Made by a program: the position numbers and the translations under genes. A stretch of DNA of 62,896 nucleotides from Caldimicrobium sp. (GTDB taxonomy: Bacteria > Desulfobacterota > Thermodesulfobacteria > Thermodesulfobacteriales > Thermodesulfobacteriaceae). Every line of letters begins with the position of its first letter. The stretch's first letter is position 1. Below, piece by piece: positions 59,338-62,163 of this stretch. The stretch spans positions 1 through 62,896 of the forward strand of contig JANXCE010000010.1 of assembly GCA_025059715.1 (NCBI GenBank), written 5' to 3'. The notes under the pieces were generated by a model. That model ran no database searches. It saw only the letters and a list, made by a program, of their open reading frames with translations, and had not been told where the DNA came from.

Positions 59338-60639
59338 TTATTCTGTTATGCTATATTTTCCGTCTTCAAACTCTACATTCGCCATAAGAACCTTCACATT
59401 AGTGAATCCCAAATCTCTAAGAGCATGATAGCCCATCTCCGCTCTCACACCGGTTACGCAGTGTACATATATAGGTTTATCCTTAGGAAGGATGTGCGCT
59501 TTTTTAGGAATGTCATCAACTGGAATATTTATAGCACCTGGAAAATGACCTTTTTTGAATTCCTCTGGGGTCCGAACATCTAAAATTATAGCATGCCTAT
59601 CCTTAAGAGCCCGCTCAAAATCTGCAGGACTAACCTCAAATGGTCTGTAAGTTCTAACATAGGTAATCTCGGTAGGTATAGGCCCTTTTTTAACCTCTAA
59701 GCCCTTAGCTATCCAATCCTTTAGTCCTCCGGAATATACGGTCACATTAGGATAACCAAATTTCTTGATAATCTTTACTGCCTTTTCAAGATCCTCTTTT
59801 TTGTCTGAGTAAACAACAATTGGTGCCTTTGTATAAGAGGGAAATTTACCTTCCGCCTTTTCTAAGTCTTTCATTGGTATATTTACCGCTTTAGGAATAT
59901 AGCCTGTTTTTGCAATAACTTCAGGATCTCTTAGGTCAATGAGAACAATATTTTCCCTTTGAATGTATTCAGCGGTTGATTCGGTATAATATCCTGCCCT
60001 TTTCCAGCCAGGCTCACCATCCATATAGACCTTTACATTCTTAAAACCCCATTTGACGGCAAGTCCTGCCGCCTTCGGACTAAAAGGTCAAGTGGGCCCT
60101 CCACAATAAAAAATTATTAGTTTATCCTTAGGTATATTTTGAAGGGTCTTCTCCCCTTCCTCTTCCATTATTTTAATAGGAATACTTATAGCGGTAGGAA
60201 TAAAAGAAGCATGATATCTTGGAGCTGGTCTGGAATCAATTAAAACATAAGTCCCTGGGGCTTCATTAATAAGTTTTGCAAGTTCCTTCGTAGAAATTTC
60301 CTTAACTCCAGGTGGTAATTCTGCAATGGCTAGTCTTATTGATTTAGCTAAGTTAATACCATCTACAACTACATATGTAACCTCTACTTCCTGTCCTTGA
60401 ATTTCCCTTATCTTTGCCGGATCTATTTTCTCAAAAACTGTCTTGTCATCATACTTAATATTGATCCTCTTTCCCGCATGATCTACAGTGATAGTCTTAA
60501 TTGTAACCGCAACTGCTGTTACTTGCCCTTTAATTTTGTGCTCCTGAGTGGAACTAAGGACTATAGAACTTTGAAAAACTATTAAAATTAGAAACAAAAG
60601 CAAGACCTTTAAACTTCGAAACTTTATTAGTCCTTCCAT
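59338..60639 (-). CDS. Predicted selenocysteine-containing, secreted three-domain rhodanese
   Basis: Two open frames (60645-60088 and 60087-59338) are in the same phase, separated by one TGA at 60090-60088. Read as selenocysteine (U184) this gives a 433-aa protein from the ATG at 60639 (GAGGGGGG ribosome site). Order: signal peptide (to about 28), a small beta-rich domain (30-105), then three rhodanese domains. Domain 1 has Cys179 in FYCGGPT followed by U184 and PFSPKAAGLA; relatives usually have Cys at the U place. Domain 2 lacks the active Cys (VVYSDKKED near 278). Domain 3 keeps it (HCVTGVRAEMGY, Cys394). A SECIS-like hairpin starts 15 bases after the TGA. It probably handles persulfide in the periplasm. 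A nonsense mutation is the alternative, but intact coding continues for 249 codons. Confidence 0.82.
60055..60073 (-). promoter_or_regulatory. SECIS-like hairpin downstream of the in-frame TGA
   Basis: Minus strand: stem GGCGGC (60073-60068), loop AGGACUU (60067-60061), stem GCCGUC (60060-60055), six pairs including one G-U. The loop begins 21 bases after the UGA and has guanines at its second and third places, as bacterial SECIS elements require. A competing pairing AGUCC/GGACU is possible. Confidence 0.6.
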
Positions 60640-60933: not shown

Positions 60934-62163
60934 TTAATACTCTAAGATCCTCTTTTCCTCATGAACCAAAAATTCCATCCCAGATTTTACATAGTATTTG
61001 ACCCTGATTATAAGTTCAACTTTTCTCACATCTTGAGGAAAGATGGCGTAAAATCTCTCAGTGGTGACCTCTCGGGGAGGTAGAGAAAAATCAACGAGAT
61101 CCTTTATCTCATAAGAGACAAACCTTCTATTTCCATACCAGTCAAGTCCGATTTCAAAATACTCTTTGTTGCCTTTCCACACCACCTTTCCCTTTTCATC
61201 AAGCGCAACAAGCTCAAGTATTACCTTAGATGTCCAATAACAACCATCAGGAATGCGATGGCCAGCGTTATTAATTAGATCCACAGTTATTACCGCAGCA
61301 GGATTTCTTTTGGTATAATCAGTGAGAGGTGCAAAGGGCTTATATTCTATTACATTCCTAACCTGCACATTGAGTCCGATCCCCTCTTTCAGCATGTCTA
61401 CCACATAGGTTCCCGGAAAGGTATGTCCACGATTTTTGGCCCTCATATGACAATCCTGACAGGATAATTGACCACCCATCGCTACATAGTGATCTCTATA
61501 GCTTTGGGCAATAGTGCTACAAAAAATTGGCTCTCCATCAGGAGCCAGGTAAGCACCGTGACACTGCATACAAAAATTGGAATTTCCTATGTATGGATGT
61601 CTCTTAACGGCGTGAAAAGGCGACTGACCTTTACCTTTTGTGCCATACATTACATTAGGTTCTGGCCTCTCTGGTGGATGAAGAGCCTTCATGTTGTGAC
61701 AAACATAACAGGTAACGGTAAGCCGTTCCAATAGATTTTTTGCCTTGCTATCTTTTTTCTCATAGTAATCAATCACCGCCTGGGCCACCTCTCTCATGAA
61801 TTTCTCTGAAGCCTGCTCTAACTGTGGTGCATGGCAAACGAAACACTTCATAAGCTCTGCTTTGTAACCTCCAGGCTTCTTGGCCCGGGCACTTCTCTCA
61901 GGATCATTAGGAACGGCATTTTTTATATAGGAATAAATTATGTCGATAGAATGCAAAATGCTCCGTGAATGCATAGAAACTTTCCACTGCTCATAGACAT
62001 CTCCATGACAACTCGCACACACTTCTGCAGGTGGATAAAGTCGCTCAAGTTCATCAATACTATCTACAAGTTTACCCTTTTCAACACTAACTGGCGCTGA
62101 ATTTACTTGACCAAGTAAAAGAGCTATCAATAAGAGCATGATACCAAAGGTCCTCCTTTGCAT
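60934..62163 (-). CDS. Pentaheme c-type cytochrome, periplasmic
   Basis: A 409-aa protein with a signal peptide (MQRRTFGIMLLLIALLLGQV) and five CxxCH heme sites: CASCH (49-53), CFVCH, CYVCH, CMQCH and CQDCH, all in the first 240 residues, resembling the cytochrome c554/NapC-like multiheme arrangement. Residues 250-409 are heme-free and probably beta-rich (VITVDLINNAGHRIPDGCYW). It should carry electrons in the periplasm; partner unknown. CcsA/CcsB at 44.2 kb would serve its maturation. AGGAGGG precedes the ATG; tRNA-Leu(CAA) lies just downstream. Confidence 0.88.
   Translation of the reverse strand: MQRRTFGIMLLLIALLLGQVNSAPVSVEKGKLVDSIDELERLYPPAEVCASCHGDVYEQWKVSMHSRSILHSIDIIYSYIKNAVPNDPERSARAKKPGGYKAELMKCFVCHAPQLEQASEKFMREVAQAVIDYYEKKDSKAKNLLERLTVTCYVCHNMKALHPPERPEPNVMYGTKGKGQSPFHAVKRHPYIGNSNFCMQCHGAYLAPDGEPIFCSTIAQSYRDHYVAMGGQLSCQDCHMRAKNRGHTFPGTYVVDMLKEGIGLNVQVRNVIEYKPFAPLTDYTKRNPAAVITVDLINNAGHRIPDGCYWTSKVILELVALDEKGKVVWKGNKEYFEIGLDWYGNRRFVSYEIKDLVDFSLPPREVTTERFYAIFPQDVRKVELIIRVKYYVKSGMEFLVHEEKRILEY

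Follow-up and report, generated by a model that had tools for sequence, protein, structure and literature searches.

We find that the 62,896-nucleotide stretch of DNA analysed here (the window) encodes a three-rhodanese protein whose frame contains one in-frame UGA. It is very probable that this UGA is decoded as selenocysteine (Sec) by the cell's own SelABCD machinery together with a downstream SECIS hairpin. The predicted exported product would, most likely, act as a periplasmic carrier or reductase of sulfane sulfur or reduced selenium. Standard annotation would split such a gene or label it a pseudogene, despite the strong support for a selenoprotein. The finding connects selenocysteine with a group of exported multi-rhodaneses whose genes accompany those for reductases of thiosulfate/polysulfide, tetrathionate and selenite.

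Gene and protein architecture

The features on which the argument rests are as follows.

59338..60639, minus strand: gene of the predicted exported tri-rhodanese, from ATG at 60639 to TAA at 59338; 433 residues with Sec
60570..60639, minus strand: probable signal peptide, an N-terminal hydrophobic segment (sequence inspection)
60322..60540, minus strand: small N-terminal domain rich in beta strands, residues about 34-106 (model secondary structure)
59974..60318, minus strand: rhodanese domain 1, residues about 108-222, containing C179 and U184 (Pfam, alignment with 6mxv, structural comparison)
60103..60105, minus strand: Cys179, the catalytic position, with which the rhodanese active-site loop opens (unchanged across 46 aligned members; alignment with 6mxv)
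60088..60090, minus strand: in-frame TGA, Sec184 (translation; Sec/Cys column in all family members)
60055..60073, minus strand: SECIS hairpin, a 7-bp stem GGCGGCA/TGCCGTC with loop GGACT, the loop beginning 21 nt after the TGA (comparative evidence)
59680..59973, minus strand: rhodanese domain 2, residues about 223-320, loop YSDKKED without Cys (Pfam, orthologues, model)
59374..59652, minus strand: rhodanese domain 3, residues about 330-422, canonical loop C394-VTGVR (best Pfam stretch, 337-418)
60934..62163, minus strand: 409-residue multiheme cytochrome c of the ExtKL family, Cys form (AGHRIPDGC; NF040886, 333 bits over a cut-off of 250)

With the TGA read as Sec, translation of 59338-60639 on the minus strand yields 433 residues, a single TGA at residue 184 and a terminal TAA; the context of Sec184 is IIFYCGGPT-U-PFSPKAAGLAVKWG. 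The initial annotation had reported one in-frame TGA (60090-60088) in an otherwise open 433-codon frame, followed by two further rhodanese domains. Translation confirms the frame and the coordinates, and PF00581 matches the protein in three stretches (173 bits against a cut-off of 22.2), which places it in the Rhodanese family. As the TGA lies within the first rhodanese domain, two such domains do come after it. The AlphaFold2 model is confident (mean pLDDT 92.5), and structural comparison of domain 1 with solved rhodaneses gives Z values of 14-18. Domain 2 is probably non-catalytic. The protein starts with positive charge and is hydrophobic at residues 13-23 on inspection, while the model places a low-confidence helix at residues 9-21; this segment is a probable signal peptide. 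The N-terminus, the gene neighbours and the lipobox or CxxCH motifs of relatives suggest a periplasmic location and a role in sulfur metabolism.

Predicted selenocysteine at the in-frame UGA

The host genome, a draft of 1.84 Mb in 80 contigs, contains selA, selB, selC and selD, all above curated cut-offs (contigs C12, C17, C7 and C44). Its selD (G000:C44:53272-54204 (-)) itself carries one in-frame TGA, so that selenophosphate synthetase is in turn a predicted selenoprotein. The TGA of the tri-rhodanese is kept in the orthologues of G003 (81% identical) and G006 (62%), and again at 35-41% identity in G001, G005, G011, G013, G019 and G022, reaching through the same genus, family and phylum. Profile matches at E<=1e-30 occur in 44 of 395 genomes of the phylum, most of the strong ones with exactly one TGA, and Geobacteraceae supply many additional TGA-bearing tri-rhodaneses. 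The orthologues of separate genomes hold the TGA at the same codon, which excludes chance or an assembly error as its source. Among plasmid records, no relative was found at E<=1e-20, and a viral structure library returned generic rhodanese matches only.

In the family rows of the tree, the TGA column is either Sec (31 rows) or Cys (47 rows) and holds no other residue; the active-site loop has disappeared from one diverged clade of paralogues. The tree of 82 rows needs 11 changes between Sec and Cys, at least 10 of them forced by well-supported branches (starred). Cys forms are over-represented in the named-genome sample because one of the two patterns used for that scan spelled Cys at this column; the whole-genome profile scans are free of this bias. 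This natural mixture of Sec and Cys versions on one tree makes a good test bed for bacterial Cys/Sec swaps in sulfur-handling enzymes. Comparison of the window's genome with G003 gives a pN of about 0.1 to either side of the TGA, against saturation at synonymous sites (pS about 0.8). What the initial annotation had asked of a selenoprotein here, namely Cys or TGA at this column in homologues, selA to selD in the genome and conserved coding downstream, is thus found on each point, and the selenoprotein reading gains extra, independent support from a conserved SECIS hairpin.

This hairpin occupies nucleotides 17-35, counting the T of TGA as 0. All 34 Sec sequences form its four inner stem pairs and have G as their second loop base. 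Of 48 Cys sequences, just 14 have this G, a count that is approximate because a few of these loops belong to a different protein or are a second loop in the same chain (L112-L114 and L065, for instance). Stem cells pair in 84% of cases in Sec sequences and in 53% in Cys relatives; 1000 synonymous-codon shuffles give 61 +/- 2%, and sliding one arm by 1-4 bases gives 26-55%. Six of the Sec-form loops read GGTCT, which we take to be the loop of E. coli fdhF. The window hairpin satisfies the published bSECIS constraints of an apical loop of 3-9 nt, a stem of 4-16 bp, a G at loop position 1 or 2 and a distance of 16-37 nt from the UGA (PMC13188914).

Could the UGA be a real stop, leaving a truncated or decaying rhodanese or a gene whose two pieces are translated separately? 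Translation table 11 does split the frame, into ORFs of 185 and 228 residues. Yet the retention of TGA at this codon by dozens of species despite saturated synonymous sites, purifying selection on both sides of it, a column confined to Sec and Cys, a SECIS confined to the TGA forms and the presence of selABCD all argue against a stop, which we regard as very improbable. A sequencing error or pseudogene is ruled out by the orthologues that keep the TGA, by the Sec/Cys column and by selection. An open frame, taken alone, would also be expected if UGA were a sense codon (Trp or Gly) throughout the genome, but 8 of 39 selected long ORFs of the window end at TGA as an ordinary stop, which argues for site-specific recoding in place of a genome-wide code reassignment, and relatives have Cys at the TGA column, not Trp or Gly; the chance of such a reassignment is next to nil. 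The selenium reading of the TGA, drawn from comparative sequence data, is very well supported.

The active-site loop and a possible mechanism

The loop of domain 1 reads C179-G-G-P-T-U184, and thus keeps the catalytic Cys and carries Sec at loop position 6. In alignment with the solved rhodanese 6mxv, C179 falls on the loop Cys and U184 on the loop Arg, with two residues inserted after U184; Sec184 is for this reason the sixth loop residue and not the classical catalytic one. Both C179 and U184 (as Sec or Cys) are invariant among the 46 aligned members, so that a retained Cys is followed at +5 by strict Sec/Cys conservation, and C394 of domain 3 is almost invariant. The expectation that rhodanese relatives have Cys in place of the TGA holds within this subfamily; in ordinary rhodaneses the position is usually Arg, Thr or Ser.

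The protein is likely to serve periplasmic respiration as a sulfane-sulfur or selenium carrier or reductase partner, with C179 and U184 as its redox couple. C179 would take up sulfane sulfur as a persulfide, perhaps handed over from C394, and U184 would resolve this persulfide through a C179-U184 selenenylsulfide. The chalcogen would then leave as sulfide or be taken over by a cytochrome or respiratory reductase acting as partner, and the pair would be re-reduced by a cytochrome, the partner reductase or a thiol. The assignment of U184 as the specific persulfide-resolving residue is tentative, and we put its chances somewhat below even. A wider proposal, which we regard as speculative and rather improbable, is that the family is an undescribed periplasmic selenoenzyme subfamily, in which the C-x4-Sec pair of the rhodanese loop would have made, out of a sulfurtransferase, a reductase of persulfide (or selenium-sulfide) that feeds several unrelated sulfur and selenium respiratory reductases, Sec having been gained or lost at least 10 times.

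Gene neighbours

The neighbours of the window gene are a BrkB-family protein and the ExtKL-family cytochrome, which lies upstream of the tri-rhodanese in both the window and G003. Within the genus, this cytochrome is a neighbour in these two genomes only, with a tRNA gene lying between. The tri-rhodanese is present in 6 of 12 genomes having ExtKL, and apart from the window's genome the genes are on different contigs; linkage to ExtKL as a general rule was rejected on this ground. The arrangement raises the question whether the gene is ExtH of the Geobacter selenite/tellurite ext operon, a 49-kDa rhodanese-like protein clustered with extKL (PMC5877670), since an ExtKL homologue adjoins the window gene. 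The rhodanese-like proteins beside extI and extKL in two genomes (L182, L183), however, have no match to the family profile at E<=1e-3, and we give this identity very little credence.

Two observations concern the cytochrome itself. A second ExtKL copy in the window's genome (G000:C17, L180) has TGA at the Sec site and the window copy has Cys, so that one genome holds Sec and Cys versions of ExtKL. The G003 orthologue (L055 4114-5300 (-)) has an early in-frame TAG (IIYS*IKN) in place of a Tyr codon of the window copy, which may reflect decay, an assembly error or something else.

Among relatives of the tri-rhodanese, neighbours vary by lineage. In gammaproteobacteria (L081, L087, L089, L092, L096, L105), a molybdenum reductase of the PhsA/PsrA type lies closely downstream of the Cys-form gene. 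In Vibrio and Photobacterium, the gene comes after a cytochrome of the octaheme tetrathionate reductase family and a cytochrome b. In Thermodesulfovibrio and its relatives, Sec forms (L077, L106) and Cys forms (L075, L109) are followed by a multiheme cytochrome that has 6-8 CxxCH motifs, and SrrA-like molybdenum reductases are also found among the neighbours of relatives. The srr selenite-reductase operon of Bacillus selenitireducens ends in rhodanese-domain genes (PMC12481199). A Cys-form homologue in Mesobacillus selenatarsenatis (L112 940-6960) is likewise the final gene of a six-gene srr-like operon, in the order rhodanese lipoprotein, PhsA-like subunit, Fe-S subunit, anchor-like protein, chaperone-like protein and tri-rhodanese; it is likened to SrrF by the gene complement of the operon, not by the SrrF sequence, and differs from the window protein in having Cys for Sec and in belonging to Bacillota. 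SrrF-like placement beside a reductase operon is thus seen for relatives such as L112, L087 and L089, and at the window locus no reductase operon adjoins the gene.

The partners that recur are reductases or electron carriers of the periplasm, for oxyanions of sulfur and selenium. The proteins adjoining molybdenum reductases or octaheme tetrathionate reductases are Cys forms, and Sec forms have multiheme neighbours at only 3 of 13 loci examined. A Sec protein with a redox-protective or signalling role (thiol peroxidase-like, or in chalcogen sensing or detoxification), and not a partner of respiratory reductases, deserves consideration as an unlikely but serious alternative: a role as redox enzymes is assumed for most Sec thiol proteins (PMC13188914), sigma-54 regulators or related PAS proteins lie near the gene at 16 loci, and the window genus has no conserved operon around it. 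Repeated, independent adjacency to multiheme cytochromes and to respiratory reductases of sulfur and selenium oxyanions speaks against this alternative and for a respiratory carrier or reductase partner.

Relation to known rhodaneses and paralogues

Selenoproteins of the rhodanese kind are not new and have been catalogued since about 2005. A 2026 review lists five forms, with motifs UxxS, UxxG, CxU, UxxG and UxxxxU (TsoB) (PMC13188914). Form 1, a rhodanese-like domain-containing protein with UxxS (WP_010941598; Zhang and Gladyshev 2005, listed in PMC13188914), has in common with the window protein a rhodanese domain, one Sec and the UxxS motif; in the Sec members of the present family the motif is U-x-x-S or U-x-x-T (U-PFS, U-ALS, U-GMS). 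Because UxxS fits and Geobacteraceae carry a tri-rhodanese, with CAGVT-U-ALSP, form 1 may be the same family, a comparison made by motif and host group and not by the WP_010941598 sequence. Its catalogue entry leaves three domains, a C-x4-U pair and gene neighbours undescribed, and a literature search for the accession returned reviews only.

TsoB (NF045694), a rhodanese/DsbD fusion, has Sec at the same loop position 6 with the same spacing (UAGLT-U), but differs in a second Sec at loop position 1, a single rhodanese domain and a DsbD-like part. The window protein, with one Sec and no DsbD part, scores 70.8 bits against this model, a weak match to the rhodanese part far from the cut-off of 805, and was rejected as a member. 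NF041203 (CxU) also has Sec in the rhodanese active-site loop; it is a small rhodanese with Sec at +2 from the Cys, whereas the window motif is CxxxxU, and membership was again rejected (69.8 bits, cut-off 115). Geobacter carries both the tri-rhodanese and the CxU kind. YnjE and EanB, multi-rhodanese sulfurtransferases with solved structures, resemble the window protein in having several rhodanese domains per chain and are structural matches, but they have no Sec, share about 16-24% identity over the aligned parts and arrange their domains differently.

Further tri-rhodaneses were seen in the same genus. Paralogues L047 2185-3540 (-), L048 2280-3626 (+) and L049 2347-3684 (+) have an N-terminal CxxCH and an altered loop, YDIGGCLSP, and on the opposite strand beside them lies a protein with Cys motifs of iron-sulfur type. 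A second Sec tri-rhodanese lineage (YCEGPRU; L051, L052, L053, L057), with an N-terminal CxxxCH, occurs in the genus and family and groups on the tree with Thermodesulfovibrio, not with the window protein. In a Geobacter-like genus, TGA-containing rhodanese matches are of two kinds, the tri-rhodanese and small CxU selenoproteins (L243, L246; FYCAUPTEHTS), the latter probably of the NF041203 type.
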